NCBI RefSeq assembly: GCF_000189635.1
Contig: NW_002476421.1
Coordinates: forward strand, 149,428-213,427
Source: Tetrahymena thermophila SB210
Taxonomy: Eukaryota > Ciliophora > Oligohymenophorea > Hymenostomatida > Tetrahymenidae
Reading direction: 5' to 3'
DNA length: 64,000 nucleotides
Both the position numbers and the translations under genes were made by a program. Positions 23,812 through 62,116 of the stretch are shown one piece after another (the stretch's first letter is position 1; the number at the start of each line of letters is the position of its first letter). Below the pieces are notes generated by a model. The model was not told the DNA's origin and ran no database searches. It saw only the letters and a program-made list of their open reading frames with translations.

Positions 23812-24891
23812 ATGGATGGTTAGAAATTAATTAATCTTTTAATTAGATAAAGAGCCAGCAACATGAAATTTATTGTAAGAATTCAAGAAATTAATAAACA
23901 CAAAATCGTCTAACTATCTTATGATCTTTCTTTTAAAATAATGAATGATCTTTTTAATTACATTTTTTTTGGTATAAGGATGAATCAAAATAGTTCATTA
24001 GTTTAAAAAGTATAAATATTTTTCTAATAAGTTATTATGATGAAAAGCAAAATATAAGGTAATTAATTAATTACTTTACCTTTTTATCATCAAACATTTT
24101 TTAACTTTAGTTACAATTTACATTGATTTAAAATTTTTAAATCTATGGTAAATTATTTAACTCTTAAATTTTGGCAATTTATTTTTTTAATCTAAAGCTT
24201 GATTAATAATAATAGCTTTTGTTTATTATTAATAAAATTTGCTAAATAATAGGTCATCACAACTTAAGAATTAACCTAAAATTAGCTAAATAGTAATTCA
24301 TTGCAACTTAAGAATTTATATAAAGTTAGCTTTTACAAAAATTAAATACAAACGTATCGCCTTATCCTACAATTTTATTTTGCTTTCATATTATTATTTT
24401 CTATCCGCAATCTATTTTATGCTTTAAATAGAAGTTACTTCTTAAATATTTATCTGAATATCTTTTATTCAATCAGTATAATTTTGATGTAGAAAATATT
24501 TATTTGAATATCTTAATAAAAAAATCACTTCTAAAATCGATTAATATCAACCATAATTTAGTTACTTTGCTTGAAATAACCTAAAAATTATTAACTATTA
24601 AAGAAAAATTATTAATTAATTCTTTCTTTCTTTCTATTTTTAGCCAAATTATCTTTTGATGGACAAAAATTTATGAAATCTGAATAAATATAATTTAGTT
24701 GTTAATTTGTTGGATAGTTATGCGTTATAAACATTTTTATAAGCTAATCTAATCTAAGATAAATTAATATAATTAATTAAAATATAAAAAAAAAAGAAAG
24801 CTATGAAAATAATTAACAGAAGCTTGCAAAAAAACGAATCAATTTCTCCTAGAAAAACTACTAAGTAGAATTCTCAGCTGTCAAGACTTGA
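23812..24891 (+). CDS. Doubtful two-exon gene running into the next gene
   Basis: Exon 1, 23812-24058, encodes a coding-like stretch beginning MDGQKLINLLIRQRAS and including MKFIVRIQEINKHKIVQLSY, ending at a G|GTAATT donor. A 585-base intron with a tandem duplication would end at the pyrimidine-rich CTATTTTTAG at 24643. Exon 2 continues in frame with AKLSFDGQKFMKSEQIQFS and stays open to TGA 24889-24891. That end overlaps the start of the gene at 24803 in another frame, which is unusual for ciliates, so the true 3' end, or one of the two starts, is probably different. No family was recognised. It may be a broken or mis-joined remnant. Confidence 0.35.
24241..24328. repeat. Two 44-base tandem copies
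   Basis: GCTAAATA...CAACTTAAGAATT...AAATTA occurs at 24241-24284 and again at 24285-24328 with scattered changes. A third, weaker relative with CACAACTTAA and AAACCTAAAATT lies near 27105-27135. Confidence 0.6.
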
Positions 24892-26260
24892 TATCTCTAG
24901 AGCCTTTAAACTTAAAGTAGAAAGTACAAATAGAAACCTTAACTCTAGTCTTTCTCCAAAGCAAGAATAATCTAAAACAAATATACTTTAATAGAAATTA
25001 AACTAATGTAGAATCCAAAGTCCTTTAAACAAAGTCCATGATTCTAATTAGTTTTAATTTCATTAAAAATCTAAAATCTATGGTGAGAAATTAAATAATA
25101 TAAAAAAAAGCTAATAAGCTGAAAATTAGCTCAATTTGTCGAAACACCAGAGCCTCATTAAGTATGCATCTACTGATTATAACAAATATTAATGTCAAAT
25201 AGAGGAGTAAAAACTTATAAGTGGAAATAAAAAAAGTAAGACTCAGGATGATAATAATTTAGAGAGTGATTCTGACTCTGAAGAAGTATTTTCAATCTGG
25301 AAAGAAAATTAACTTAAAAGTTGTGGGTTAGATACGGATTAATTTATTGATGACAGAGGATAATAATTAGGATTTTACTAAATTTACAGACTGCGCTCTG
25401 CATTATACTAACCATCGTACGTATCGCGTTTAGATACAATATAAGAAGTGTAAATTCTTTCATAGCATTTTAATAAAGAGATACCAATAGAGCTTTTGAA
25501 GCAATAACAATTCTATCTTGATAAATATTATGAAATTCAGAAAAAAGATAAAATAAACAACTAAATACTATAGAAATAACTTAGTAACTAAAATTTTAAA
25601 GGTTTTACTTAAAAATGTTAGACTGAAAGACTTTATAGGCCAACATCTTCATAAGAATAAAATAAGATTACTTCTACTAAATTAAAATAATAAATTAGTT
25701 AATAGCTAAATTTGAATGAAACAAATCGAATTTAAAAAGAGAAAAGCAATATTATCTAAAATTAATCAGAAAGAATGACAAAAAAGATGTAAAACAAGCA
25801 AATTTAGAAATAAATAGGCAAAAAAGCAAATGATATAAATTAAGAATACCAACATTTATCATAATAATACAAATCTAAAAGAAGACAAAAAATTAGTATA
25901 GACTAAGAAGAAATTTAAAAATTCATATAAAACTAACCCATCACTGATAAAAACATTATCTCATAGGATGGTGATGAAGATACAAAAATTGATTAAAGTT
26001 TTGATAATACCTCTATAATATCTAATAATAAACATAGCCTTTCCAAAGACAATAATAATTCTACTAAAATATAAAATGAAGAAATAATATAAAATATTAC
26101 AGAAACTGCAAAATCAGTACTTTCTTACCTTTAAAAAATAGTTTCTAATCAAACAAATTAAGGTTAATAATTATTTTAAAATAATAAATTCTTTAACTTG
26201 ACAGATAAATTTATGAGTTATTAATCAAATAAATATGAAAATCATAAATAGCGAAATTGA
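24803..26260 (+). CDS. Family member 1: intronless acidic-core Gln/Asn-rich protein, 485 residues
   Basis: A single frame runs from ATG 24803 to TGA 26258-26260. Residues 1-150 are basic and disordered. An acidic Ser/Asp/Glu stretch (SDSDSEE, about 156-161) leads into the family core FSIWKENQLKSCG starting at residue 163, then FYQIYRLRSALYQ, YVSRLDTIQEVQIL and a helical segment ending YYEIQKKDK near 265. The remainder is Q/N/K-rich with weak coiled-coil character. There are no TM segments. The core is nearly identical in the gene at 48677 and recognisable, more weakly, in those at 30690, 35661 and 61214. I know no named domain with this sequence. Being intronless, soluble and basic outside the core, it could be a nuclear or RNA-associated protein, but that is inference. 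Confidence 0.8.
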
Positions 26261-27447
26261 ATTTTATAATAAAAATTAGATAACTTAACCTATTTATATA
26301 CTGCAATTTTTCTACAGTTATGTACTCTATTTCGGATATTTTTTAATTATACTATCATAATTTTTTCCTCATTCAAAAAAAACCTTTGGGTTTTAATTAA
26401 AATTTTGTCTTAATTTAGAAACTAAGATCATATATATTTATTTTTATATACAATGATTTATGATTTTTAAAAATTAAAAGGTTTCACTATCTTCTATTCT
26501 ACAATTTTTGGTAAAGAATTATTAATAATTATTCATTTAATTTTAAAGTAAACGAAATTTTATACTCAAGTTTTTAAGAATTATGAATACAATTTTTGAT
26601 CTTTGAGAATTAAATAGTTTAGCTCTCTTGTAAATTTATGTAAAGAACAATCAATTTGTTTTAAATAAAAAAATGAGCCAGTAAATTTTAATTGATTCTT
26701 ATTGAAACAACTTTTATATTGAAGAAATAAACTTAAGTTTTTTTTTGAGCTTTGAATTAATATTAAGATTCTTAATAGAATTCTAAAACATTTTTTAAGT
26801 ACATTTTGTTTGGATATAAGAATTAGTAAAAATGATTCTAAAATTCGAAGTTTATTGTTTATTATTTGTTTTAATAAGTAATTTATTTTTAAAAAAACAG
26901 AACTAATTTTAACTAGTAATCTTAGATTACTATTTCAATCACACTTATTGTTTAAATTTACAGATTACATTAATCATCTAATTTTAATGTATCATTAAAT
27001 TATTTAATTCCAAATAGTGAAAGAACCAGTTTTTTGAAAACAAAACTAGATTAAGACATAATCTTATTATTAAATTTTTCTAAATATAGATCCATCATAA
27101 ATTATCACAACTTAACATAAAACCTAAAATTTGCTTTTATAAATAATCATTATTACCACATCAGTTTTTCTTAAAAAATTATTTCTTTTATTCACAGCAA
27201 GTATTATTTATTAAATAAATTATTGGTTAAATTATTTATTTAAATAATTTTTGTGTAGAAAATAAATATATTTTTACATTTTATTAATATTAAATATCTA
27301 ATTACTATTTAGAAAAAAAATATATCTTAACTTTGTTTTATCATGAATTTATTTAGGTTTTATTTATATAATACATTTAAGAAATAGGTGCACTAACCAA
27401 AAATATTACTTCTTTCAAAATAGTGAAATTTAATTTTTTTTCTACGA
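26261..27447. other. Intergenic AT-rich gap
   Basis: This is spacer between family member 1 and the segmental duplication. Open frames here translate to F/I/K/N-rich sequence. A weak relative of the 24241 repeat occurs near 27105-27135. Confidence 0.45.
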
Positions 27448-28383
27448 AGCTTAAATTTCCCTAAAATAATAAAAATTGCTATCCTACACTTTTTTACAAT
27501 ATATGGTAAAATATAATATATTTTTTAAATTATATCTATAAATAGATTTCAATTAAATAGAATAAATAAACAAATAAAATAAAAAAATTTATTATTCTTC
27601 TTAATCTAAAATAAATAATCTATCAAAATATAATTTCAATTTTAAATTGATGAATGGGAAAATCATGTAAATTTTCTTAAGATTAATTAATAAGAAGAAA
27701 CTTACAAATTCTTTTTAATAAATTGAAAAATTTACTCACCATAAAATTAGACTTATTCAAGTACAGTAGACTTACACAAATTTATGTATAAATTTAAATA
27801 ATTACTATCCATAAATAGAAAAGAGCTACATAGCTTTACGAACAGATTTAAAAACATAGGCTTTCTAAATTTTTGATAATCAAATTAATTGGTTTTACAT
27901 TTTTTTAGATATTATGAAATATTTCTTACACTCAAATTTAAAAAATAACTATCATATTACTTCTTAAAAAAATTATTAAATACTTAAATTTTAATGGAGC
28001 AAAATCCTTTTAAAAGCTACTCTATATTATAAAAATATTAAAATCTTACTTTAAAGATGATGTTATCCTATTTGCTTTACATTTTGATTTTATATTAATA
28101 AGATCAGCCAGTCTTTTAGCATCGCAAATTATTTAAAAAGAAAAGCTCTAAAATTTAAGATACAATCCATAATAACTATAATAAAAGTAAAAAAATAATT
28201 ATAAATATATTTAATATCATTTCTCTTACTTTAAATATTTATTTTTAATTATTTCGCTCAGAATAATTTGAAATTATTTTTATTGAAAAAATTATCTTTA
28301 ATTGTAATTTTTAAAATATAATATATTTCTTAATTTTTGAAAATATATTCACTAAAGTACAATTAAATAAAATCAATAATAAA

Positions 28384-28501
28384 CAGGGTCTAATAAAATA
28401 AAAATCATGTGAAGGTGTTTTTTGTGTTTTTTTTTGAAATAAGTTGTCAAAAAAAAATTTTGATAATTTTAATGAAAATACTCCCATGTTTTTAGACCCT
28501 G
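28384..28501. mobile_element. 118-base MITE-like element with 10-base terminal inverted repeats
   Basis: It begins CAGGGTCTAA and ends TTAGACCCTG, exact inverted repeats; the inverted similarity continues weakly inward (CATGTGAAGGTGTTTT against CATGGGAGTATTTT). The flanks ATAATAAA (28376-28383) and ATTATAAA (28502-28509) match at 7 of 8 bases, consistent with an 8-base target duplication. The matching point in copy B (about 33030-33040) has a single AATATAAATG and no element, so it is an empty site. CAGGG-type ends and 8-base duplications are typical of hAT-superfamily non-autonomous elements; that assignment is inference. There is no coding capacity. Confidence 0.75.
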
Positions 28502-28508
28502 ATTATAA

Positions 28509-28934
28509 ATGAAGAAAATAGTTTGGGCTAAGAAGAGGGGTATAATTCAAAGTAATAAATTTTAAAATATATTAGTAAAATTAATAAGCTCATTAGCTAG
28601 CTTTCAAATTTATAAATAATAAGCAATATTAGCCATGTAATATGTATTTAACTAATATTAGCTAATATTTTATTTTAGTGGCAATGAAGAAGAATATTAA
28701 AATATAGAAAGAAAACAATTTCATGATAGTGGAAGTAACTATCCATCAAACTAAATTGAAAGTTATTTTTATTAAACATCTTTAAGATCTGCTAAATCAA
28801 ACGAAAAAAATATAAATTTAAAATAACTAAAAGAAATAGATAGAGAATTTAAACTAGCTATTAAAAAAAAAAAAAATTACAAAAGGAAAATAAAACTACC
28901 AAGATAAAAGATATTAAATATTAACCTATTTTGA
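28509..28934 (+). CDS. Small gene of duplication copy A, 141 residues, unknown
   Basis: ATG 28509 begins 8 bases after the mobile element. The frame is open to TGA 28932-28934. The C-terminal half is clearly protein-like (NEEEYQNIERKQFHD, NQIESYFYQTSLRSAKS) and its IESYF...SLRxA...NEKN pattern is conserved in copy B at about 33515-33580. The middle (about residues 15-55) is less convincing and may be an intron: GT sites at the same position in both copies (after about 28540) and a TTTTAG before 28680 are shared, but splicing from them gives another frame. No domain is known. Confidence 0.4.
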
Positions 28935-29213
28935 GAGAATACATTCACAAAATTGTTTTTTAACAAGTACAATAAATTGAAAAAGGCAACATTAGATATT
29001 ATTAGTTTTGAAAAATAATTTAAATAAAGCTAAAGATTTAGTTCAAATAAAATCAATCTTAAACTTTTATATTTATTTACTAAATAAAATTTATATTAGA
29101 AGTTTAAAATATTATTAAATAGATTTTTCATTCTAATCTAAAATTTCTTTAAATTATATAACGAAAAACAACTTGATATCAATTGTTAAATATATATTAA
29201 TCTATATTATAAT

Positions 29214-29771
29214 TCAATGATTTATTTTACTGAATTTACTCTCTATATTTTTTCTAATTTATAACACAATTTTATGTTTAAATAACAAAAAAATTATAAT
29301 TAATATTCTGATGATTTCTATTTTTAAGTGATTTTAAGATTTATTTACATAAACCTTAAATTTTTCAACTATAAATTCTCTCCATTAAAAATGTAATCTA
29401 ATTTGAATATGGAAAGCAAGATAAGATTAAGAAAAGTATTATAAATCTTCAAAATTAATGTAAATAATGATTTTTTGGTAATATAGTTATTTATATCCTA
29501 TATAAATATTAAATAAATTCAATGCCTCATTTTAAAATAATGAACAAATAAAACTGATTGAAGAATAATTATTTTCTTCATATTCATCTTATTTTTTGTT
29601 TTAGAAGGTTTATACTTCACTGTTTAGTAGGATGTGCTCTTCAAAATTTTGCTTTTAATCTTTAGAAGAAATTTTTTTAATTTAAAATTCTAAGAAATAT
29701 AGAATTCAGAACAAAGAAATTTTTATTATTATTGGACATCTTATAATTATACCAAATCCCTCTTCTTCCAT
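29214..29771 (-). CDS. Minus-strand gene of copy A with a 19-nt first exon
   Basis: Exon 1 (29753-29771) encodes MEEEGF plus one base; the intron runs from 29752 to an acceptor at 29690. Exon 2 continues in frame with coding-like sequence (KISSKDQKQNFEEH, EVQTFQNKKQDEYEENN) to about 29560, then stays open with poorer composition to TGA at 29216-29214. Copy B has the same start pattern (MQEAGF), the same donor position and a related exon 2, which supports a real gene. The 3' end is uncertain; the well-supported part is 29560-29771. No domain recognised. Confidence 0.45.
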
Positions 29772-30689
29772 TTTTTGATTTATATTTTGTAAGAAGTTGG
29801 TAGAGAGAGGGACTATTAATTAAGTAAGATAAAACTGAGTTAAATTTCTTTTATATAAATCTTATTAAAATAGAAGAATGTTTATACTTTCAGGATTTTT
29901 AATGCTAAAATTTATTAACTATTATATCTAATTACAGTAATCAATGTAATATAATAGAGAATAGAATTTATATGATCAGTCAAATTACTTTATATTTTAT
30001 GCGCTAATTAATTCTGACGTTAAAAAATATGAGAAAAAATAAAGTATTATGTGTTAATATTATATTTAAGATTATTTTAATCTGCAGACTTTAATATATT
30101 AAAAAATCTTTGCAAATACTTTAAATGAAATAAATATAAGTAGCATTAACAAATAAACTAACTAATTATTTATTTTATATAATAAAATTATTTATGATCA
30201 CTAGAATTGGTTGGGTACTGGGATAAATAGTCACTTCAATCAATTATTATTATGCTTTATTTACATAAGTTAATTAAGATAAAACGATATTCAAAGATAA
30301 ATTTTGAGCTAAGTGCAGGATTATATCTAAAAATTATATTAACAAACAAATGCTTGAAATTAATTAATAAAATCTGATAAATTATATTATCATTTACGAC
30401 TTATATCTATTTCACTGTATCAAATTTCTGTTTTCTATATTAATTTTCAAGATCAACAAATAATAAATTATTAAGTTATTGATTAATTAGCTATTTAAAA
30501 ACTTACAATCATCTATCAGAATTTAATAAAATTCAAAAAGATTAAGTTAGTTTAAATTGGAGGAATTAGAAATCAAACTTTTGTAAAAATAAAAAAACAA
30601 AACATATTAAAAAATATCTTTACAAAAGATCATATTAACTTGGTAACTACTAGCTTGAGAGAAGATTAAATTTTAAATATACCTCTTGT

Positions 30690-31391
30690 ATGACAAACAA
30701 TAATATCCAAAATAACTTTTTTAATCATAATAAAACATAATAACAAATAATAAACAATCTTAATGGTGAAATTATGAGTTATGATTTAGACTATAACCAA
30801 ACATAATCTCTTTTACTAATTCAAGCCATTTATGAGTAAAATGAAATATAAAACTATTAATAATCTTAAGATTTTCAAAATCAAAACTTTTCTCTTGATT
30901 TAAGCTTTGAGGATTATAAATCATTTAGTGAGTTCCCAAGCCTATGTGAAATAGAATAAAACCAAAAAATTGAAGATGATGAAGAAATGTTTTATATTTG
31001 CAGTAAGGATGATCTTTATGAAATAAATAACTTAATACCATTTGATGAATTGAAATACTAATTAACTCATATATAAAATGATATTATTGCTCAAAGAAAA
31101 GGTGAACTTATAAACTAATAAAATTAATAATAAAAAATAACAAATAATCCCTACATTTAATTTGAATAATATAAGATAGAAGGTAGTAGGAATAATATAC
31201 AGTCTAATTAAGAGATTAACAAAATTAGTCTATAAATTATAAATTAATATAAAGAAATAAAAGAAACTGAAAACTTTTCATAATTCAACTAAGATAATTA
31301 AATTTAAATTAAAAGAACTATAATTTTATTTATTTAAATGATGATGATAATAATAACAATATCTTAGTTTTAATTCAATTAAAAAAGATGA
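30690..31391 (+). CDS. Family member 2: intronless 233-residue protein in copy A
   Basis: ATG 30690 to TGA 31389-31391, one exon. The N-terminal 70 residues are N/Q-rich. SFEDYKSFSEF at 72-82 is almost identical in the gene at 61214; an acidic stretch (IEDDEEM) leads to the core FYICSKDDLYEI from residue 101, then a helical part (FDELKYQLTHIQNDIIAQRK). The C-terminal 100 residues are N/Q/I-rich and weakly conserved in copy B because that copy is frameshifted. Compared with members 1 and 4, Trp of FSIW is replaced by Cys and the FYQIYRLR block is lost. Function unknown; no membrane segment apart from a hydrophobic end (IILFIQMMMIITI) that may be an artefact of a late frameshift. Confidence 0.65.
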
Positions 31392-33038
31392 AATTTTAAA
31401 AAACTTTAATAATATTTTTATTTTTAAAGAATAACTTAAAAATGTAAATCATTTTTGATATAAAATATTTTTATATTCAATTTTATAGTTTAAAAAATTA
31501 ATTTGATTAAAAAATAAAGCAAAATGCCATTTAAATAAGTATATTTGTTTTTAATTAATTACTTGTTTAGCTTAGCTAAGCTAGGTAGAAACAAGAAAAT
31601 TCAAAAAAGTAATTAAATTTAATTGAATAAAAATAAATAATATAAAATGAGACAAAATGCCCCACTGAGAATAAATAAAATTATTTTTTAGATTGGGTCT
31701 GGAGTGGATTCAGATGAAAACAGCTTAAATTTCTGTAAAATGTTAATAATTGCTATCCTGAACTTTATATACAATATATGTTAAAATATATTATATTTGT
31801 TAAATTATACCTATAATTCGAGTTCAATTAAATAAGATAAATATTTACATATGATAATTAAAAACATTGTATATTTTTAGGATAACTTAGAAAACAATAA
31901 TTTTTTGAATAATTAATCACCTAAGCTGATCTATTATAACATAAAGTAAAAAAGTTGATTATTCTTATTAAGCTAAAATAAATAATATCTCAAAATATAA
32001 TTTGAATTTTAATTGATGAATGGGAAAATCATGTAAAATTTCTTAAGATTAATTAAACAAATGACTTACAATAACTCTTTAATAAACAGAAAAGATTACT
32101 TACCATAAAATTAGACCTAATCAAATAGAGGAGACTTACACAAATTTATGTATACATTTAAATAATTACTAAACATAAATAGAAATTAGTAACATAACTG
32201 TATGATCAGATTAAAAATTTAGACTTTCTAAATTTCGATAATTAAATTCATTTATTTTACATTTTTTTTGATATTAAGAAATATTTCTTACATTTAAATT
32301 TAAAAAATAACTATTATATTAGTTACTCAAAATATCAATAATTTAAAATTTACTTGTAGATAATAAATATATTATAATATGTAAAATATGTTAATGATTG
32401 ACAAAGTCAAATTTGATAATAATATCATTACAATTATGAAAATAAATCTTACAATTTTAGAGTAAAAATTATATTGTGAAATAAATCTTTTTTGGGATAG
32501 ATTTTTAGAAGAAAAATTTAAATATGAAGTCATTAATTACTGAGCTATTTTATTGTTAAGAATGCAAATTAATAATCTTAATTTAACTCTAAAAATTTCA
32601 CATAAATTTATTTAAAAATGTCTCAATATATCCCTAAAGTAATAAGAGTTACTTTAACTACAGCTTAAATTATGCTACTTCCTTACATAATTATTAAATA
32701 CTTAAATTATAATTATTTGTTTTACATTTTGATTTCCTTTAATTAAATCAGTTAGCCATTATCTCTACAAATTATTTAAAATGAAAAGTTCTAACATTAA
32801 GATACACATACATAATAATATATTATAAATGAAAAAAAATAATTATCAATAAACATATTTAATATCATTTCTCCTAATTTAAATACATTTAATTATATCA
32901 CTTAGAATAATTTGAAACTATATACAATGAACAAAATCTATTTAACTCTAGTTTATAAAAAATAATATATTTCTTAACTTTTGAAAATATATTCACTAAA
33001 TTAATTAGTAATTAAGTAGAATTAAGTGAAAAATATAA

Positions 33039-33714
33039 ATGAAGAAAATAATTTGGTATAAGAATAGGAGTAATATTCAAAGCAATACATTTTAAAATAG
33101 ATTCATTAGCATTTGCTTATTAGTTCACTTTCAAATTTATAAATAATAATCAAAATTATCCATTTATGGATTTAACTAATATTAGCTATTAATTTTATTA
33201 TAGAGGTAATGATGAATAATATTCAAATATAGGAAGAATATGATCTCATAAATAGCGGAGGAATTAGTGATAAATATATTTACCTTAGAGTTAATTAATT
33301 ATAGTTTTATTAAATATTTCGACTCTGTTCAGCTTTATATTTAAATCCTATTTATCTAGTTTAAACTATGTTAAAGATGTTTTAAAAATTCAAAAATTTT
33401 TAAATAGCCTAAAAAGAACAATAAATTTATCTTGATTTTTTTAGTTCTAAACAAAAAAATACTTAACACAAGTTTCAGAAAATGTATTAAATAATCAAAA
33501 TTATTATCTAGGAAGCCTAATTGAAAGTTATTTTGAATAAGCTTCTTTAAGAACTGCATCAAATGAAAAAAATAAAAATTTAAAATTATAAGAAAATAAC
33601 TTAAAAAAATATATAGAAAACTTAAACTAGCTAAATAAATATAATAAGAAAATAATAAAATATATTCTTAAAGTTAATTTTAAGTAATATTAATATAATA
33701 TAACAATTATTTGA
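33039..33714 (+). pseudogene. Broken copy-B relative of the gene at 28509
   Basis: It starts ATGAAGAAAATAATTTGG like copy A, but the frame used in A meets TGA near 33200 and again just after. About 230 bases are inserted (33283-33510) before the conserved block (LIESYFEQASLRTASNEKN, about 33515-33580), which then stays open to TGA at 33712. An alternative spliced frame with MMNNIQIQEEYD cannot be excluded. Confidence 0.45.
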
Positions 33715-34464
33715 AAAAAAATTATTTTATAAAAGGAAAACATGATAATAATTGTTAGCATTTTTTGAAAAAATTTTATCACTAAATGTGTTTTTAACAA
33801 GAGTAAAAATTTAAAAAGATAACATTAGAAATTAATTGATAAATAAAGCTAAGGATTTAAAAGATCATATTTTTATTTTAAAATTAAACAAACATAATGA
33901 TTTTTGAAAATTAATCAATCAAAACAAAATTTAGATAAAAAAATGTTTAAAGTATATTGAATTCAACTAAAATCAATCTTAATTTTTTATATCTCTTTAA
34001 TGCATAGAATTTATATAAGAAGTTAAAAATATTATAGAAAAGGTTTTTGCATTTTAATTTAGAAATTATTTAAATTATGTAACTAATAATAACTTTATAT
34101 CAGCTTTTAAAAATATTAATTTATATTATAATACTGATAAATACTGTTAACTTCAATATTTTATTTTACTGAATTTACTTTATATATTTTTTATAATTTA
34201 TAACATTATTTTGTTGTAATAGCTAAAAAAATTATAATTAAAATTCTGATGATTTCTTTTTTTTAACTAATTATAAGATTTATTTACATGAAATATAATA
34301 TTTTTCGATTCTAAATTCTCTCCATTAAAAATGAGTCTATTTTAATAGATAAAGTATAATAAGATTAAGAAAAGAATTGCAAATCTTCACAAAAAATATA
34401 AATAATGATTGTTGGGCAATAAATTTATTAATTTCTTAGATAAAAATTAAATAAATTCAATACT

Positions 34465-34711
34465 TCATTTTAAAATAATAAAGAAATAAAGAAATATAGT
34501 AAAGAAGAATATTTATTCCTCGTCATCTTCAACTTATTTTTTTGTTTTATTAGGTTTTTACTTTGTTGTTTAATCAGATGCACTTTCTAAATTTTGTTTT
34601 TAAAATTTTTGAGGAAATTTTAAAAATCTAAAATACTTATGATTAAATTTAGAGAGACACTTTAATTATAATAGGCCACCATACAATTATACCAAACCCC
34701 GCTTCTTACAT
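34465..34711 (-). pseudogene. Frameshifted copy-B relative of the gene at 29771
   Basis: It keeps the start (MQEAGF, 34693-34711), the donor at 34692 and an acceptor at 34628. Joining them puts the conserved exon-2 frame (QKQNLESASDQTTKQ, KKQVEDDEEQ) out of phase by one base. Read in its own frame, exon 2 ends at TGA 34467-34465. Either a frameshift has occurred or a different acceptor is used. Confidence 0.45.
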
Positions 34712-35660
34712 TTTTTGATTTATATTTTCTAGAAGTTGGCAGAGAGAGAGAAAGGGACTATTAATTAAGAAAAAAATGAGTTAAATTTCTTTTTTACAAT
34801 CTTATAAAGCTAGATTAATATTGATGTTTGTTGAATTTTAAATACTATAATTTATTAACTATTCTATCTAATTACAGTAATCAATGTAATATATTAGAGA
34901 ATAGAATTTATATAATCAGTCAATGATTTTATAATTTATGCGTTAATTAATTCTGAATTTTAAATATGAGAAAGAGCAAAATTCAATAATTATATTTAAG
35001 TAAAATAAAATTATTTTAATCTGTCGATTATGATAAATTTTTAATATATTAAAATATCTTTGAAAATATTTTAAATATGATCAGCATTATCAAATAAACT
35101 ATCTAATAATTTATTTTATATTGAAAAATTATTTATGGTCACTAGAATTGGTTTGATACTTGATTAAATAATCACCTCAATCAGTTCTTATTACACTTTA
35201 TATACATAATTTAATAATGATAAAACGATAACTCAAATAGAAATTTTGAGAAAGGTACAGGATTATTTCTGAAAATTAGATCAACAAACAAATGCTTGAA
35301 ATTAATTAATAAAATCTATTATTATTTACGGCTCATATCTATTAACTTATTTCACTGTATCAAATTTCTGCTTTCTGTATTAATTTTCAAAATTGTAAAG
35401 ATAAGACAAGTAATAAAATATTAAGTTAGTGACTAATAAGCTAATTAAAAGCTTACAACCATATCAGAATTTAATAAGATTCCTTCTTAAAAAATGATTA
35501 AGTTCGATTATATTGCAGAAATTAATAATAAAACTTTTGTAAAAAATAAAAAAAAAACAAAAAAATTAAAAAATAACTAATCAAAAGATAATTATAACTT
35601 GGAAACAGTTTGATTGAGGATAGGTTAAATCTTGCTTTTAATTTTAAATATACTACTTAT

Positions 35661-36146
35661 ATGACAATCAATAATATCCAAAATAACAATTATAATCATA
35701 ATAAAATATAATAACCAATTATAAACAATCTTAATGATGAAATTATTAGTTATGATTTAGGTTATAATCAAACATAATTACTTTAACTAATTCAATCCAT
35801 TTTTGAGTAAAATGAAATATAAAATTAATAATAATCCAAAGATTTTGAAAATCAAAGTTTTTCTTTAGATTTAAGCTTTGAAGATTATAAATCTTTTAGC
35901 GAGTTCCCAAGTCTATATGAATATGAAGAAATAGAATATAACCAAAAAGCTGAAGATGATGAAGAAAAGTTCTATATTTGTAGTAAAGATAGTCTTTATG
36001 AAATAAATAACTAATCTTTTGATGAATTAAAATACTAATTAATTCATATAGAAAATGATATTATTACTCAAAGAAAAGATGAACTTTTAAACAAAGAAAA
36101 TAAAGAATAAATAAATAGTAACAAATAATCCGTAAATTTAATTTGA
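35661..36146 (+). CDS. Family member 3: shortened copy-B paralogue, 161 residues
   Basis: ATG 35661 to TGA 36144-36146. It matches member 2 residue for residue through SFEDYKSFSEF, the acidic stretch, the core FYICSKDSLYEI (from residue 104) and the following helix. An indel in the A-rich tract near 36100-36125 then shifts the frame, so it ends about 70 residues earlier than copy A. Sequence homologous to the lost C-terminus continues to about 36360. The conserved core is intact, so it may still be functional, or it may be an early pseudogene. Confidence 0.5.
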
Positions 36147-36515
36147 ATAACATAAGAGAGAAATTGTTATGAATAATATACCATCTGATTAAGAGATTAA
36201 AAAAATTAATCTATAAAAAATAAGTTAATACAAAGTAAATAATAGAAACTGGAAATTTTTCATTATTCAATCAAGATAATTAAATTTAAATTAGAAGTAC
36301 AAATATTTTAGTTATTTAAATGATGATGATAAAAACAGCGATATCTCACTTTGAATTCAACTAACAAAAATTAACTTAAAATATATGACCATATTTTTAT
36401 TATAAAAAAATATAATAACAAATAAAGAATAACTTAAAAATGTAAATTATTTGTATATAAAATATTTTTGTTTTCTATATAAGTGTTAAAAATAATAATT
36501 TTATTAAAAAAATAT

Positions 36516-47400: not shown

Positions 47401-47534
47401 TCTATAGTAAACATATAAATTAAGAATAATCTTTAAAAGAAACTCCTAGATAGAAGTCTTTAGCTAACGAAAATCAAGATAATAATTTAATAGTTTTTAC
47501 TTAAAATAATAGTGAAGATATGTCAAACTGTTGA
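38482..47534 (+). CDS. Large beta-helix, Cys-rich, multi-pass membrane protein, about 2539 residues
   Basis: Fifteen exons: 38482-38581, 38634-39257, 39313-39462, 39517-40166, 40223-40544, 41004-41461, 41551-41988, 42047-43437, 43546-44173, 44227-44358, 44417-45370, 45423-45807, 46041-47084, 47136-47321, 47377-47534; every join is in phase. A signal peptide (MNTVLILGIFTILTHQF...YAQ) is followed by a region of beta-propeller-like composition to about residue 750. Then come beta-helix repeats with GGC/GGA caps (YGGCLLF, GGCLRAK, DGGAFYIE, YGGAISI, DGGALYL, NGGALYI). A Cys-rich segment (CVVC, CYQCPSGAKCKNG, CEECD, ECGQCK) and a C-terminal part with about seven membrane segments and a charged tail follow. 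This layout occurs in large ciliate surface proteins; a surface or adhesion role is inference. Intron 40545-41003 is exceptionally long (459 nt). The acceptor of intron 6 could be 41532 instead of 41550, adding six residues. Confidence 0.85.
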
Positions 47535-48676: not shown

Positions 48677-49750
48677 ATGAATAAAGATTATAAATTAAAT
48701 CATTTTAAATCCTTTTAAACAGTTTTATCTCCTCCTAAATAATTTTATAATAATCTTCGACTTTCATTTTCTTATAAAATTTAGGAAACAAATAACAGCT
48801 TTTTTAATCCTAAGTTAGATGCTCAAGAATTTTTTGATCAAAATAATAACAATTTACAATTAATTAAGTCCAATAAAGATGTAATGAAATAAGGAAAGTA
48901 CAGCTATACTTTATCATTGAAGAATAGTCAAAACCAACAATAATTTCATCACCAAAATTTATTGAATGAACAATAAAAATATAATATAAATATGGATGAT
49001 ATGTAGTAATTAAGTGATTAGGAAAGTTAATATGACAGTGATGAAGAGGAATTCTCAATATGGGAAGAAGATGAACTTAAAAGCTGTGGAATAAACACTG
49101 AAGAATTCAACGATAGCAGAGGAAAGCTATAATTTTACTAAATATACAGACTGCGTTCTGCATTATATTAACAGACTTATGTTTCACGCTTGGATACAAT
49201 TTTAGAAGTATAAAAAATTCAATATCATTTTAATTAGCAAATATCAGTAGATGAGTTGAAAGAATAGCAAGTTTATCTTGACACTTACTACTCTATTCAG
49301 AAAAAAGATTAAGAAATAGTTTCAGAAAACAAATTGAATCATAATTTCCTCAACTAAAAGTCAAAAAAATTTGATGTAAAAACTTTTAATTCATAAAATA
49401 AGAAAGATGAAAAAATAAATTTTAACGAGTCATAAACTGTTTAAAAACAAGCATTTGTTATTCGTAATAGCTCAAATGAAAATTTATAGGAAAATTTATC
49501 AAATTATCCTCCTAATTAGATAAAAAGGAAAGAAAATAATAATTAAAAAATTGATTTTGATTAAGATTCTTCAAAAAAAATCAAAATTCATTAGTAATAA
49601 GAAAATAAAATTAATGATAAAAATCAATGTAATATCAAAAGATAAAGCAACCATATAACATAATAATAAAATTCAGGAATTTTAGAAAAAATTTTATATC
49701 CTCTTTCATTTTTAAAACAAAAAATTTTCAGATAGCATTAAAATATTTGA
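48677..49750 (+). CDS. Family member 4: intronless acidic-core protein, 357 residues
   Basis: ATG 48677 to TGA 49748-49750, one exon. The N-terminal 105 residues are N/Q-rich. An acidic stretch (YDSDEEE) leads to FSIWEEDELKSCG from residue 126, then QFYQIYRLRSALYQQ, TYVSRLDTILEVQ and a helix ending YYSIQKKDQ. Over about 90 residues this is the closest relative of the gene at 24803, about 24 kb away, while the flanks are unrelated; the selection therefore sits on the core. The C-terminal third is K/N/Q-rich with a short hydrophobic patch (ILYPLSFL). No named domain, TM segment or catalytic motif was recognised. Two Cys in the core region are not conserved in all members, which argues against a zinc finger. 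Confidence 0.8.
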
Positions 49751-52507: not shown

Positions 52508-55500
52508 ATGATGATAAAAAGAGGTTTTATACCAATCTTAAAATATATTTCAAGAAAGTTCTATACTATGAATTTTCATTAGATTATTAGATGTTATGAG
52601 AGAGGATAATTTTTTAGTTTACTTTTGATGCTAACTAAAGGAGTACTATTCCTTTTACTCAGCATATATAACAAAGAATATACCTAAATTTCAGCTGTAG
52701 ATAATAATATGGTTTTTTTAAATAAAAACAACTACATTAACGAATGGTAAGCAAACGGATATGCTATTTATATTTAGCCAGTATGTTTAATAATAAATTC
52801 AAGCATTTTAATATATTTAATTTTGTGTTATATCAATTTTAGCATCTTTGGATATAAATATATTGTTTAGCCAGCATTATAATAATGCTTAGATCCAAAT
52901 GAAAGTATTGAAATAGATGATGAGGAATTTTTACTCAAGTTAAATAAAAAAATGTATCATAAGATATATCAAATTATGAGTATTTACATTTCAATTTATG
53001 AATATATTCTTTCTACTGCAATTTTGTATTATAGTCTGATATAGATCCAGAATCCATTAGCTCCTATCAATCTACTCCTAGCATTATTTATTGGTAATAA
53101 TTTTAATAAATGGATTATATTTAAAATATTTATTTGGATTGTGTTTAGACTTCAACAGATTCCTTTTTAAAAAATTTTACCATATTTTATTTAATTAATT
53201 GATAAAACAAATAAATAGCTTTTTAGATATTTTGTTAATTTAATAGTTTTTTAATTAATTTTAATAAAAGGCACTTTAATAATCGATACTGATTATGATT
53301 ATTCTATAGACTCTTAAGATTATATGGCAAGGCCTTATAGCCCTTATAATGCAGCAATTTATTATTTAGATCTGTTAGTAGTTGGATTAATTAGCTTCAC
53401 AAACAATATTGATACTTTACTTTTAAGCATATACTTTTTAACAAATGGCTGGTTTTGCAGTAAAATATGTATATATTATCAAGCTAAAACTAGATTCTGG
53501 AATATCTTTACATATTACTATTTTGGTACACTCTGTTTGACTTATTTTGTATCTTTTAAAGCATTTACCTCAATTAGCTTACCTTCTTTGGCTACTATTA
53601 TTTATATACCAATATTTTATAAAATCTCTTATATTATATGTGGTTAGCAAGATAAATCGAGTTGTAGCTTTTTATAAGAAATTTTTGAAGAAAATGGAAA
53701 TATTTCTTTGAAAAGCGTTGATAGAGGAATAAGATAACAGTTTTTTTAAGACTTACAAAATTAGCGCATAAATGATTAGCTACAAATTTAAATCTTCAGT
53801 TTAATTGTAAAATAGAATTAACTATTATAAAAAATGTAGAATAATGTAAGTCATAATTAGCTTTCTATGTATTCTTAAATAGAGTAAATGCAAAAAGTAA
53901 TCAACATTAATGAGAGAGTATTATAATTTATAAAACTACAAATATAAGAGATTTCTTAAAAAAAGAGAGAACAACCCAACAAAATAGTTTATCTGATTTT
54001 TCTTTTAGAAATATTAAAAAACAAAAAAGCTTACATACTTGAATATTATTAAACAATATCATAGAAATTAAGTATAAAATAAGAACAAATTTTAAAATCT
54101 ATCTATTTAAAGTTTCTAAAGCAAAAGGAAACTATTTAAAATACAACAAGTACTATGAATTGTTTTGATGACTCATTTTATTAATTTATAAATTATGAAG
54201 AAAAAATAAATTCTGTTTATTAGATTATACAAAGAGGAGTTCAGTAAAAGATTGAATTTATTTCTTACTTAAAGAAAAAAATGCTAGATATTAATTTTTT
54301 GGTAAACAAAGCAAAAGCATTAAGGAATATTTAATTAAAAGCAAGAAATTCAATAAATGATTTATCAATCATAAACAATGAGAATCAAGATTTAATTTCT
54401 CTATAAATTTTCTATATAGAAACACTTTCATTTGAAGAAATAGATTTAATATTTAGTGCTGATTCTTTTTCTAAGATAAAATAGTAAAAGAAAAAAAGAG
54501 AGAAAAAATTTTAAATAAGGCATAATATCCAATTAAATGATTTATTTAAAAACAAATATTCTTGTGTAATATTTACTAAAGTTGAAGATGATTTTAATTT
54601 ATCTATATAAAAAGCTTCTTAAAATTTTAGTAAAATATTTGGAATTAATTAAAAAGATGCTCTTAATTAAAGGGTTGAGATTTTAATGCCACTAAAAACT
54701 CCACTAATTTAGAAACATAGAGAATATATTGCTAATTATTTCTAAAATTAAAATAAAGATACCATCTAAATTAAAGATAAAATTATGTTTGTTAAATCAT
54801 CAAAAGAATACCTTATTCCTATAAAAACTGATATTAGGTTGAATTATTCTTACAAACTTAATGAAATAGGATTTACAGCAATTTTTTAGTAAGTAAGAGA
54901 TGATTGTCAATATATTTTATTTTATATAGACACTCTAAATGTTATTGGGACAACTCAAAATGATTAAGACAGTTCTAATTAATATATAAATTTTAGAGAT
55001 ATCAAAAATTTAGGTAAATACTTCCCATTTTTATATAAACTCAAAACATAGAATAAATAATAATTAATGAAAGAGGAAGAAGTATAAAAAGAAGAATCTG
55101 ATACAAAATAATTTAATTCAATGTAAGATATATTATCTTTTTCAAGCGAAAGATATATATCAATTACTTATATTCATAAAAAGCATATAAATAAATACTT
55201 AGTAAATAATATTGAATATTTATTAATAATTTAATATGACGATTAATCACTTATATTGGAATAAGAGGAATTTGAGAAATCTAATTTTTTTTATTATTTG
55301 ATAAATATTAGCATTTAAGAAAGTGGTTACAAAGATATATAAAATTTGTACTTTATGAAACTATCTAATATACGTAATTTAAACCCTCATCAAAATGGAC
55401 AAATTATATTTAAGTACCTCAATGAATATTCTGAACTATATTAGCAGAGTATACCTTATAAAATTTTAGAAAATATGTAATAGGCTTTCTAAAAAAGATA

Positions 55501-58367
55501 TTCGATAGCAAGCTCTCAAAGATTTATTAAATCTATAAATAACTCAGATTTAATAGGGCAAAAATTAAATAAATAAAATGAAAAATATAAATTTAATAGT
55601 ATGAATTCTAAAAAATTAACAAATTAAAGCTATCATTAAATAATTAGAAATGTAGAAGAAAACTATGAAATTTCACAATTAAGTACGAATTAAATTTAAT
55701 TAGAATTAAAATCACAAAAATAAGGTATTTTAAATAATTAAAGGATAGAAATAATTAGTACTTCTTAATTCACTCCTAAAGATTTACTTAGTTAAGTATC
55801 TAAAAGATAAGAAGAATTTACTTAAGAGTATGATAAATACAATTTAAATGAAGATAATAAAGGAAACGATGACTGTACGTTTTAAGCTATTGATAGAAAA
55901 GGAAAGGATGAAAGTATGTTAGTTGACTTCAATTAAAAAGAGTAAATAAGCTTTGGTAATTAAATAGTTTTCAGTACTAAAAATAGCTTAAGTAAGCTAT
56001 CTCCTACTAAATAATAATCTCTATTAGCTAATAATGATTATACTCCACTAGCTATTGATAAAAAAGAAATTGATAAGCAAGTATTATTCGACTTCTATTA
56101 AAATCAATAAATAAATACAAACTGCATTGAAGATTAATTGTACTTTAGTGATAGAAATCACTTAAATTAAATATCTCCTATGAATTAAAATATATTACTG
56201 ACCAATAATTTATAACAATAAACCATCTAGAAAAACCTAACTTATCTTAGTAATGAAAATGAAATGATAAAATCTAAAAATAATTTAACATCTTACAAAG
56301 ACAGAAAACCAAATAAAACTAGAGAATAGAATATTGATAAAAATTCTTCTTCTATCTCAAGAGATTAAGCATCGTCATATAAAAAAAGTTTAATTAACAT
56401 TATAAGAAGAGATTCAAATATCTAAGCTGTTAGAGTTGTTAATATCTTTGGAATAGCTACTTTTTTAATTCTCACTATTATAACTGTATAACAATATTTT
56501 AATTTTATGGACTATATGGATTAGTTGAATCAAATAATGAATTCACAAAATTGGCCTTATGAAGTATAAGATTAGATTAGTAAATAGCTTATGCACTAAA
56601 ATTTCTTATATTTAGAAAGATAAAATAATTTTACATTTACTTCATAAGAAGTTCAAATAAAATTTGATACATTTTTATTAGAAAAAATAAATTAAAGTAG
56701 TGTGGAGTTTTTAAAAATATTACATTCTATGGATTAATAGCTAACTAGTTAAATGCTTTAAAACTAAATCAGTAATTATTAGTCTTAATTTTATGTGAAT
56801 ATTGCCTATGATCCATTAAATATTTCAGGTGTACCTTCTAAAATAAAAATTTTCTTCTTTGAAATTAGAAATTCATCATTGTGGTATTCTTTGCTGGTCA
56901 ATAACTATTATATCTATTAATAATCAAAAAACGTGTTTGGGTAGCTTTAAGAAATATCTCTCCTTTAAAATATGAATATTATATAAACTGGAATGTAGAA
57001 CACCATAGTCTATTTCGAAGGCTATTAAAATCAATAAATTTTAGAAGTAAAAAATTAAATTTCTTATCTAATAGGAATAAATATGGTTGTTTCAGCAGTG
57101 TGTCTTTTAAGTATAATTCCTTTATATTATTTCATATAGAAAAAAAAGCAAATAATTTTAAATTTATTTAGCACTTTTACTGTTTACTAGCTATAATAAA
57201 TTATTCTATAAATAAAATCTTTCTATTATAAAAACTCATTTTTGGTAACTAATTTAAATAATGCTGATTTTGATATTTAAATTTTCAGCAGTAAACTACT
57301 TTAAGATTATTAGAACCATAAAAAATAAACTCTTAGCAATATAACAAAACTTCCTGGATATAAATTAAGTATAGTATTAGTAATATGCCTAATTTATTTT
57401 TTACTCTCACTTAATCCAATATTGAATAAGATATTTATTGAAATTTATTTAGATAACTAGAGTAATAATTTTATGATTCTTGGTAAATATATTCTCTCAT
57501 ATTTTTTGACCTCATATTAAAAATTATTTTAATTATATAAGATAATCTAAACTAAGCTAGATCTTTCATTTTATAGAGTTCAGGTTTATTATCATTTGGC
57601 ACAACCATTAAACTATATCCTTATTCTAAAGTAGTTTTATTAAGCGAATACATAAGCCAAATCAGAGCAATCATGAATAAAACAGATTAGTTGTTAACAA
57701 ATATAACTAAAATCTCTAATTAGTTTGATATATCTGGAAGGTAAAATATAAATAATAACTCACCTTTTCATTTTAAAATAATATATTTAATAAAAATAGA
57801 TACCAATAATCATAGTATGATAATTTTTTTTCCCCTCTATTTCAAGATGACATTTGTTCCTTACTAGAAAAAAATTAACAACTAATACTAGATCCTACTA
57901 AAACTCTACCTGATTCTTGTAGAAAAATTCAAAATGGATGTCTATAATAAGGATTAAAATTATCACTAATTAAATTTTAATCAATAATATTAGATATAAA
58001 TAATCTAATTGAAACAAATCAAGATGAATAACTATTGTAAGCTGAACAGAGCTTATTTAAATCTCTTAACTTAGAAGATTTTTTTAATTTTATAGATTTT
58101 TTACAAGAAATATTCTTAATAATGGGTAACTTTATTGTAAATAATAACAATGACTACTTCTAGTATATCAAGTAAGTTGAACTAATATTATTTATCAATC
58201 AGCTTGTTCTCATAGCTTTAACATTTGGCCTAGGATGGCATTTATTTAGCTGTTGGATTGGTGAATAGATTAACAAAATTAAATAATATCTTTAAATAAT
58301 AAATATTTAAAATCTATTAGATAATAAGTATATATTATTATTTATTAAAAATAATTCAAAATTATGA
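52508..58367 (+). CDS. PAS-domain multi-pass membrane protein, about 1855 residues
   Basis: Exons 52508-53093, 53271-57482, 57542-57740 and about 57798-58367. The N-terminal 370 residues carry about seven membrane segments (for example LLMLTKGVLFLLLSIY, LDLLVVGLISF). A long cytoplasmic part follows with a PAS fold at about residues 620-740: ASQNFSKIFGINQKDAL, then RVEILMPLKTPLIQKHREYI. This resembles the PAS S-box membrane proteins expanded in ciliates and annotated as tiny-macrocysts (TmcB)-like. A Q/N/S-rich linker (about 900-1240) precedes further membrane segments (IFGIATFLILTIITV, MVVSAVCLLSIIPLYYFI, LSIVLVICLIYFLLS, FINQLVLIALTFGLGW) that bracket a lumenal or outer domain. It is probably a sensor; the ligand is unknown. 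Odd: the frames of exons 3 and 4 do not join cleanly across a T-run near 57822-57831. Intron 1 (177 nt) might hide a small exon. Confidence 0.75.
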
Positions 58368-58459
58368 AATTAAATTTAAAGAAAAGTATTTTTATTCTAT
58401 TTTTTCTATTATTTCAAAATCTAACTTTATTTAAAATTATAATTTAATTAATAATAAAT

Positions 58460-58475
58460 AGTACCCTAGGGTACT
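58460..58475. repeat. Perfect 16-base palindrome AGTACCCTAGGGTACT
   Basis: Each half is the exact reverse complement of the other, with no spacer. Eight of 16 bases are G or C in a surrounding region that is almost all A/T. It lies 93 bases after the TGA of the PAS gene. It could be a protein-binding site or part of a transcript 3' hairpin; the function is unknown. Confidence 0.8.
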
Positions 58476-58965
58476 GCCTTTTTCAATGTTAAATAGACGA
58501 ATTATAACAAATTTTTATACTTTTTAAAAACTAATATTATTTAATTTATACAAATTTATAATTTGATTATTTTGAATCCCATATATATAAGAATTTGTTA
58601 GTTATCTAATAATTTAAATTTTTTTCAAAATTGCATATTTAAAGGCAAATAATAAATAGAGAATATCATTTTTATTATTTCACAAATAAACTATAAAAAA
58701 CACAAACTTTGCTTAATTAACAAAAATAACAATCATAAATTATTAAAAATAAAATTACTCTTAATTTAAATAAGGTTATTTATATTTCAAAACAGTACTC
58801 TTTTTTGCTATTATAAAACTTTAATATAAATATCTAAAAATTTTTTTACAAAACTTGTTTAAATCTTAAATAATTTGTATATATTTATTTGTCTCTATTT
58901 AATAAGAATTAATTAGAAAGTAGCTAGCTGATTACAAAAAAAAGTAATACCACAATTTTAATTAA

Positions 58966-59457
58966 AATAAATTGTGTATTTAAGTAAGTTAAAATCACAA
59001 TAGAGAGACTTTAAAGAATTTACATTTTTTGTAATAGAGCAATATTTATTGATACATTTTTTGAAAACTCTAGTTATTTATGTTAACTGGTTATATTTAC
59101 CTTGTAAAAACATAAAATTTGTAATCTTCATATTTAATAATGCAATTAAATGTAATTATTATATATGCGAATAGTTTATAATCTTTAAGAAAAGTAAATA
59201 CTTCTATTATAAATTAAATAAATTGTGTATTCAAATACTTAAAAATCACTATAAAGCGGCCTTTAAATATTTACATTTTTTAAAATAGAGCATTTTTTCT
59301 TCATATATTTTTTGAAAACTCTTTGATATTTTGTTAACTAGTTATATTTACCTTGTAAAAATATTATATTTGTAATCTTTATATGTAATAATGCAAATAA
59401 ATGTAATTAATAATAAGCAAATAGTTTATGATCTTTAAGAGAGTAAATTTTAAATTA
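58966..59457. repeat. Two 250-base tandem copies
   Basis: Copy 1 (58966-59215) and copy 2 (59216-about 59457) share AAATAAATTGTGTATT, TTTACATTTTTT, TTTTTTGAAAACTC, GGTTATATTTACCTTGTAAAAA-type and TTTGTAATCTT words in the same order. Divergence is moderate, so this is an old local duplication. Confidence 0.75.
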
Positions 59458-60262
59458 AAAATATTACTAAGCATGCAATTTATCATGAATTTTTTCTTCA
59501 ATTTTTTAATTTATAAAGTTAAGTTAAATTTGTATTTTGATTTATAAAAAAACTTTTGAGAGACTTGTAATCTTAAACAATATCTATACAAACTATAGTA
59601 ATCTATAATAATTAAATTTCTATTTAATTACTCTTATGTAATTAATTAGGATAATGATTATTAACTTTGAAATGAGCATTTTTTTATTCAAAAATTTTGT
59701 AATCGAAAAAAATATTTGATATAAATTTAAGTAACAAACTAAAAAATAATTTTTTATAAAAACATTATTCAAATGTATTAGATAAATATTATTTTATTTG
59801 AGGATTGATTTTACTTAACTTTATTTCAGATTTATAATTATCCTTTAAATTTCTTTTAATTTTTTATTAGAAATATGATAAATAAAATGCGAGTAATTAT
59901 TAAAAATTATAAAAACAATCACATGATTATTAAATTCTGGCAATTACTACTTCATTTCAATTTCTAATTTTACTGAATTTAATTTTCCTTTTTTGATGAT
60001 TTCCGATATTCAAAAATTAATCAAATTATCCTCGCTCACATTCTAAAGAAAGTAAAAACTGTATTTTTGGATAAAAACCCAATCTCTTTAGTGCTTAAAA
60101 AGTTTAAGAATTAAATATTATTAATTAATAATTATAAAGTGAATATAATATTTTTAAATTAATATTTTCATTTAATTAGAGGTATTATATAGAGAAGAAA
60201 AATATTTTTTTTGAATAATTTTAATTTTATTCATAATTTATGAATATTTTCAAATTTAAAAG

Positions 60263-60430
60263 AAGGCTAACTAAGAGGAATTAATTACCAAAAATATGAT
60301 GAATATACTGATTATTCTCAATAATTAAAACCTAACCCACTCAATATTTTTAGTGCTTTAATAATATTACTTAAAAATGAGTTTTATTAAAAATATGTGA
60401 ATTCAAAAGAGCTGAATGATAAAAGATACG
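60263..60430 (+). pseudogene. Orphan exon-like coding fragment
   Basis: One frame encodes a 56-residue stretch of normal protein composition (INYQKYDEYTDYSQQ, LNIFSALIILLKNEF, SKELNDKRYG) flanked by a TTTAAAAG acceptor-like and a G|GTATTT donor-like site. There is no in-frame ATG, and a TGA lies upstream. No partner exons were found within 1 kb. Probably a remnant of a lost gene. Confidence 0.35.
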
Positions 60431-61213
60431 GTATTTAATATATAATTGCTTTTGTATAAATATAAAATAATATATTGTTAGCTTTTTTTTAAATATTTAA
60501 ATCATAATAGTTTGTTAACTTTTAAATACACAATTTGTTATCAGTTTTCTATTCAATTTTACTAGTTTAGCTTGAGTAAATAAAAAATGATTAGCTAATA
60601 ATGTAATATTTTTTTTAATTCTTCTACTTTTCTGAATTTAGTTAGTTAAATCATGATTATTAAATATGAGATGCTTTTATTTCAAAAATTTTATTGATGA
60701 AATGAAATATGAGCAATTAAACACACTAAATCCAAATTGATTGTTAGTTTGTATTTGTTATAAAAAAGTTATCTTGAATTTAAAATATAACTAGTTATAA
60801 AAGCTGGCTTATAACTAAAATAAAAATATAATATTTCTTAATAAAATCTGATGGGTAATATTTTTCAACTAACGAATTATATTACTTACTGTATCTAGTT
60901 TCACTCTAATAAAAAATCTAGGATGAATTTCTAATTAACTAAGCTTTTAATTTAAAGACATTAGTGAATAATTATGTGAGTTTTTTTACTATATTCATTT
61001 ATAAGAAACTAAATGGTTGGATTAAAATTTTAGAAACCAGCAATTTTGAGAATTATAAAAAATTAATTAAAAAAAATTAAAAAAAAAAATAAAACCAAAA
61101 ATTAATTATATTTTGATTATTATTGGTACTATTCTAACTTAGTTCTTTACTTAAGAAAAAATACACTCTATCTTTTACTTTAAAAATATCTAATCAAGCA
61201 AACACTATTTTCT

Positions 61214-62116
61214 ATGGATTACAATAATACCAACATTTCTAAAATTATTAATCCATCAATACCATAAGTTAATAACTTTTAAGATGAAGATTAAATTTAT
61301 GATTTATATAATAACAAAACTTAATTACTATAAAAAAATATTAGCCCTTATGGACAAACCTAAATAGAAGAATAAGAATAAAATTTTGAAAATCTAAATG
61401 ACTACTTGGAAATAAGTTTCGAAAACTATAAATCTTTTAGCGAGTTCTAAAATGAAGAGGAAGAGGAAGAAGTAAAAGAGTTAGAAAATTAAGAATAAGA
61501 ACAGTTTTCTATTTGTAGTGATGAAGATCTTTTTGAAATCTCTATTAATACACATAAAATTGATGATAATACTTAACATTAATTAGATTATTACTTTATC
61601 TACAGATAAAGAACAGTTTTAATATAAAAAAAATATGAACAAAATATTTAATAATAATAATAATAACAATAATAAGAAAATGCAATAGTAAACTATTTCT
61701 AAATATAACTTTAATAATTTATAAATGAAGGCCTTGAAGAAAATAGTACATCTAATTAATAAAGTAAAAAAATAAATCTAATTTAAGATAAATAATTAAC
61801 TACATTTAATTAAATAAATAAATATACAAAAAGTTCTGAAAGATAGTTCTAATACCAACCTTAAAAAAAAGTAAACATGTCATTGTAAAATGCAGGACAT
61901 CGTTCAAAAAAATTTGCAAAAAAAATAAATACACTTAATAAACTATAACATAAGAAGATTAAACCATAATTTAAAATAGTAAACACAAAAACTCAGTAAA
62001 CGATAAAATAAACTGAAAATATATCATATCCCAATCAAAATGACTAATTTCAATAAACAAATAATAATAATAATATTAGACAGTAAGAAAGCAATAATTC
62101 CTTAGATCTTAGTTGA
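61214..62116 (+). CDS. Family member 5: intronless acidic-core protein, 300 residues
   Basis: ATG 61214 to TGA 62114-62116, one exon. SFENYKSFSEF at residues 68-78 matches member 2. A Glu-rich stretch (EEEEEEV) leads to FSICSDEDLFEI from residue 98, then a block YYFIYRQRTVL that resembles FYQIYRLRSAL of members 1 and 4. The protein thus links the two subtypes of the family. A run of nine Gln follows at about 146-154, encoded almost only by TAA. The C-terminal 100 residues are basic and Q/N/K-rich (HRSKKFAKKINTLNK). There are no membrane segments and no recognised domain. Start chosen as the first ATG; it lines up with the other members' N-terminal lengths. Confidence 0.8.

Follow-up and report, generated by a model that had tools for sequence, protein, structure and literature searches.

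Species-restricted genes of Tetrahymena are described, in the part of PMC6564038 drawn on here, as often tandemly duplicated, fast-evolving and mostly silent or low in axenic growth. The same part gives median ratios of non-synonymous to synonymous substitution (Ka/Ks) of 0.25 and 0.30 for genes confined to one or two Tetrahymena species, and medians of 0.03–0.07 for conserved genes. The window analysed here is a 64-kb stretch of Tetrahymena thermophila SB210 DNA, C126:149428–213427 (C126 is the window's contig, NW_002476421.1; coordinates without a contig name are window positions). It contains five genes encoding proteins with an acidic-headed core. They are best explained as belonging to one multi-copy Tetrahymena family, which grows and decays by duplication.

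A sequence-only reading of the window had noted these five frames and their motifs. Read in genetic code 6 (table 6), all five are open from ATG to stop at the positions first given, all lie on the + strand, and the noted motifs are present and well above shuffled controls. The family copies in the window are as follows.

24803–26260, + strand: member 1, A-type, 485 residues, core at about 25250–25570; an open frame with 144.5 bits in the leave-one-out profile.
30690–31391, + strand: member 2, B-type, 233 residues, with an acidic FYIC head and without the YRLR block; an open frame.
About 33212–33493, + strand: sixth copy, an A-type relic with frame breaks, located by profile, tblastn and frames read by eye.
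35661–36146, + strand: member 3, B-type, 161 residues, ending early relative to member 2; an open frame, aligned with member 2.
48677–49750, + strand: member 4, A-type, 357 residues, core at about 49013–49336; an open frame whose match to C126:250 kb starts at the ATG of member 4.
61214–62116, + strand: member 5, 300 residues, a bridge between A- and B-type; an open frame with 21.2 bits in the leave-one-out profile.

The motif F[SY]I[WC]xx[DEN]xL is found in all five members, a FYQIYRLRSAL-type block in members 1, 4 and 5, and SFE[DN]YKSFSEF in members 2, 3 and 5. The clear A-type consists of members 1 and 4, which carry the acidic run, FSIW, FYQIYRLRSALY, SRLDTI.EVQ and YLD.YY.IQKKD, and which are 61% identical over 110 query residues (expect value, E, 2.7e-34). 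Member 5 had been said to combine features of both subtypes, and it does match the B-type strongly (E 6e-14 with member 2 and 3e-12 with member 3) and the A-type more weakly (E 4e-5 with member 4 and 2e-4 with member 1). The five genes had also been called intronless. Their frames can indeed be read without an intron, although an upstream exon may exist.

The common core comprises about 95 residues, a length that falls to about 40 in the most distant members, and lies within N/Q-rich proteins. It consists of an acidic run, [SN]IW, and then GID...F.D..G..L.FYQLYRLR and predicted helices. Its skeleton can be written as the acidic run, [SN]IW, a few residues, G[IVFY][DN], two to three residues, F or W, x, [DN], x2, G, x2, [LF], x, [FL], x2 and [LIM]Y[RK]xR, though individual rows deviate from it. 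In a 17-row alignment the only fully constant residue is the Ile, with the W, F, Q, Y and R positions reaching at least 90%. A helix-like Thr-Ile..Val segment and a Gln-Gln.Tyr-Leu-Asp segment come next in the A-type and several relatives, and are absent in the most distant ones.

The proteins contain 26–31% Asn plus Gln, and the likeness between them might thus be an artefact of low-complexity, AT-rich and N/Q-rich coding. Composition-matched shuffles score far lower, and the common block itself is not of low complexity. With 100 shuffles per query (members 3, 4 and 5), tblastn within the window and the self-match excluded, the best match of member 4 reached 129 bits against 30.4 for its best shuffle, and that of member 5 reached 63.9 against 33.1. 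For member 3, matches to members 2 and 3 were set aside, and the best remaining window match still had 53.1 bits against 27.7. In the leave-one-out profile each of the 17 rows scores above 200 shuffled versions of itself; the weakest row, member 5, exceeds the best of its shuffles by 21.2 to 2.2 bits. These controls rule out the artefact for the three members and the 17 rows, and its probability is practically nil.

The family extends far beyond the window. In the genome searched (101.0 Mb, 445 contigs), single-protein queries and scans of selected DNA stretches identified at least 26 loci, spread over 10 contigs. C126 has 13 of them, C199 and C198 have three each, and C169, C179, C184, C216, C259, C269 and C336 have one each. 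The count of five was therefore too low, by the frameshifted copy inside the window and 20 loci outside it. Local amplification had been proposed, and clustering is indeed seen, since the 13 C126 loci are strung along 77 kb, the three of C199 lie within 11 kb and the three of C198 within 12 kb, with unrelated frames in between; the family is not, however, a local set of five genes. Between C126:226753 and 251363 the members mostly alternate in strand (−, +, −, +, + (B-type), −, +), unlike the window members. C4A2/G4T2 telomere repeats are found at both ends of C199 and C198, and at neither end of C126. A stretch of the telomerase reverse transcriptase (TERT) gene aligns to PDB 2r4g, a T. thermophila entry, with identity at 101 of 102 residues; the single difference is the first residue, at the exon edge. 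The genome is accordingly that of Tetrahymena, most likely T. thermophila, and macronuclear.

Member 4 as the query gave at least 16 loci. The genes at C198:245 kb and C199:351 kb, used as queries, added C198:250.6 kb, C198:257 kb and C184, and the C184 core added C336 (E 5e-12) and C179 (E 9e-12), which are linked to the family via C184 alone. The remaining loci are members 2, 3 and 5, the relic at 33.2 kb and a B-type gene at C126:241.6 kb. The profile picks up C184 (E 5.8e-11) and C198:257 kb (E 1e-8), neither of which is among its rows. The least secure locus is C198:250.6 kb (E 0.0014), which was kept because one frame reads EEEYNIW...GIDFENFTD...LYKVRS. A search with member 5 recovered nothing beyond itself, member 3 and member 2; it overlooked the B-type gene at C126:241.6 kb, which surfaced only in a scan of selected DNA stretches for the YKSFSEF motif. 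Thus the searches do miss members, and all locus counts are lower bounds; window segments with profile E of 0.03–10 were left out of them. A loose genome pattern gave 13,838 matches and was uninformative; a tighter acidic IW head pattern gave 33 matches against 21 in the reversed control, and of the 30 loci cut out for it the profile recognised 14, all at places already known.

The core is apparently undescribed, judging from the databases searched. The sequence-only reading knew of no domain with this signature, and searches of Pfam, NCBIfam and PDB sequences likewise produced no credible match. No Pfam match above the cut-off was obtained for any of the five window proteins, 17 cores, 10 full-length relatives or two further stretches. 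The best Pfam match of a core, DUF4156 (E 0.011, one of 17 rows), was rejected as lone and sub-threshold, as was the best NCBIfam match (E 0.0054, one of 17 rows); no core reached E of 0.001 or below in NCBIfam. Sub-threshold Pfam matches of one of the five window proteins and four of the 10 relatives were also rejected, and PDB sequence matches, none better than E 0.79 (0.79–1.1), were taken as chance. No relative was found in viral contigs with the core alignment or in prokaryotic contigs with member 4 as the query. Beyond this genome the searches covered these two collections and PDB sequences, and the lineage restriction suggested by the sequence-only reading is a possibility. Among paper titles and abstract openings no published description of the family was found, which is no proof that none exists.

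The core is under stronger purifying selection than the flanks where the two were compared. By the Nei-Gojobori method (table 6), the ratio of non-synonymous to synonymous substitution rates (dN/dS) is 0.095–0.298 in the core and 0.331–0.722 in the flanks, the core being lower in nine of nine non-independent pairs; the pairs have sequences in common, and dS reaches saturation in some (up to 3.0). Whole-protein dN/dS is 0.32–0.56 in nine A-type pairs and 0.47 for members 2 and 3. These values exceed the 0.03–0.07 medians published for conserved genes, but all are from paralog pairs read with no conserved-gene control. The earlier proposal of a conserved core with free flanks holds for the core; the flanks are not wholly free, since variants of KRRQKISIDQ, KCxTxR[IL] and TAKSVLSYLQKIV are common to five full-length members (member 1, the copies at C126:227, 231 and 234 kb, and C199:347 kb). 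A tree was also built, in which one of 17 inner branches is well supported and several branches are long, and no conclusion was drawn from it.

Part of the growth of the family in the window is a tandem segmental duplication of about 5 kb. Block spacings are 4362–4982 nucleotides and identity is 78–89%, and the blocks cover genes as well as the DNA around them. The two copies were delimited in a repeat comparison, for which 20 of 23 repeat families were listed.

27574–31421, + strand: duplication copy 1, containing member 2, with blocks 78–89% identical to copy 2.
31941–36403, + strand: duplication copy 2, containing the relic and member 3.

Members 2 and 3 occupy matching places in the two copies and both lack most of the core. 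Being copies within one segmental duplication, they are not independent finds. Their 5′ parts align over 144 codons with in-frame indels of 9 and 3 nucleotides and a dN/dS of 0.40 (16.5 synonymous and 34.5 non-synonymous differences), and in their 3′ parts the frame between them is broken by indels of 4 nucleotides and 1 nucleotide. The B-type gene at about C126:241.6–242.2 kb shares 45% identity with member 2 across 216 alignment positions (E 1e-38, a single comparison) and holds the frame of member 2 through the ENFSQ motif. Member 3 is therefore the one that ends early. In the B-type copies (members 2 and 3 and the gene at C126:241.6 kb, with member 5 as a bridge) the second half of the block would have been lost or changed, and these copies may either bind differently or be decaying.

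Decay is seen at three places. The relic at about 33212–33493 was detected by a profile that did not include it among its rows (E 3.9e-5), and in tblastn four of five A-type queries hit it at E of 1e-3 or below; read by eye, its middle part runs on in another frame. At the matching spot in duplication copy 1, about 28.5 kb, neither profile nor tblastn found a core. The cores at C126:238 kb and C126:245 kb have TGA stops nearby. The three decayed copies illustrate birth and death of family members. One may go further and regard all copies as decaying remains of an amplified sequence that has no function in the cell, a reading in line with the three relics, the segmental duplication and the frameshifting indels between members 2 and 3. 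The low core dN/dS, with higher values in the flanks of all nine pairs, argues otherwise, as do the long open frames retained in several members on other contigs, and we hold decay alone to be decidedly unlikely.

As to function, the core may be a small module for protein binding, helical for the most part, with an acidic run and an Ile-Trp head that would contact a basic partner. Judged by composition, the proteins are probably largely disordered, and their flanks carry Ser-Pro sites and, in one subgroup, the basic KRRQK motif. Taken together with a binding module, these flank features would suggest regulated adaptors, possibly nuclear ones. The adaptor reading has about as good a chance of being right as of being wrong; a nuclear location of the proteins has less than that. 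Several observations weigh against this reading. Its functional part is based solely on composition and motif reading, and transcription of the frames is putative. Members 2 and 3 have no basic clusters of the nuclear localisation signal kind, and N/Q richness and acidic runs carry little information in so AT-rich a genome. In both of two AlphaFold2 models IW is followed by a short helix, and three more helices lie from the FYQIY block onwards; the mean predicted local distance difference test (pLDDT) is 50.9 and 51.9 and the predicted template modelling score (pTM) 0.29 and 0.31. Both models come from the same four window sequences, so that their agreement on helices is weak support, and the fold is not trustworthy; Foldseek on the first model gave no match at E of 0.001 or below among 36.

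Two other functions can be read from the head of the core. The acidic run and the aromatic residue after it may form a histone-binding element, a chaperone-like acidic-aromatic motif. The task of the proteins would then be to shield H2A-H2B, or a different basic protein of the nucleus, or to deliver it. Y/F/V/H-S-I-W directly follows the acidic run in A-type members and in most relatives, and the KRRQK-like motif of one subgroup would also fit. The invariant residues, however, are the Ile and Trp, the residue right after the acids may be V, I or H, and no solved chaperone matches in sequence. Alternatively, the head could be an acidic activation domain and the remainder an unrecognised DNA- or cofactor-binding part, making the family one of transcription regulators. 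An acidic run with such hydrophobic spacing resembles activation domains, and in members 1 and 4 the run occurs with F..IW....L spacing in an N/Q-rich context. Against this, the Pfam searches revealed no DNA-binding family, and the head is joined to a conserved block; activation domains fused to such a block are unusual. Either proposal seems quite improbable to us. A bolder form of the binding-module reading, also unlikely, would make the core a new small domain, perhaps a ciliate invention: an acidic, Ile-Trp-headed helical module. Some two dozen proteins would use it to bind the same partner, their disordered tails being different, and copy number and tail turnover would retune a single regulatory complex that may act in the nucleus or in mating.

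None of seven neighbouring frames has a Pfam match at E of 0.01 or below. The frames beside the family at C126:222525–224389 (Cys-rich) and at about 38757–47515 in the window (membrane-like) resemble each other by eye, and a second co-amplified family is possible. An open frame at 52508–57676 encodes 1722 residues with hydrophobic stretches and has no Pfam match at that threshold. A 226-nucleotide direct repeat lies at 58936–59161 and 59187–59412, its two units 80% identical and spaced by 251 nucleotides.

With this family, the fast-evolving families of Tetrahymena gain a well-delimited and apparently undescribed protein block that is present in at least 26 copies. One contig displays birth in the segmental duplication, divergence in the A- and B-types with their bridging member, and death in the relics. 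A block that stays conserved through the turnover of its carriers gives a way to ask what such families do, and tagging and knockouts are routine in Tetrahymena.

With acidic activation domains and acidic-aromatic histone-binding motifs the core has in common an acidic run beside aromatic and hydrophobic residues. Here, by contrast, the run heads a conserved block with a near-fixed Ile-Trp and the GID...F.D..G..L.FYQLYRLR stretch, and no membership is claimed. With the tandemly duplicated, species-restricted genes of PMC6564038 the family has in common clustered copies and apparently loose selection; the whole-protein values of the A-type pairs here come from paralogs within one genome. As in the clustering of fast-evolving Tetrahymena families, several paralogs lie together on one chromosome. 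The main case of that paper is leucine-rich-repeat genes with 90-bp exons, whereas in the present family no repeats or introns were seen and one conserved block is common. Clustered, fast-evolving families of Tetrahymena are a known kind, to which the present family adds a member with a block that appears undescribed.

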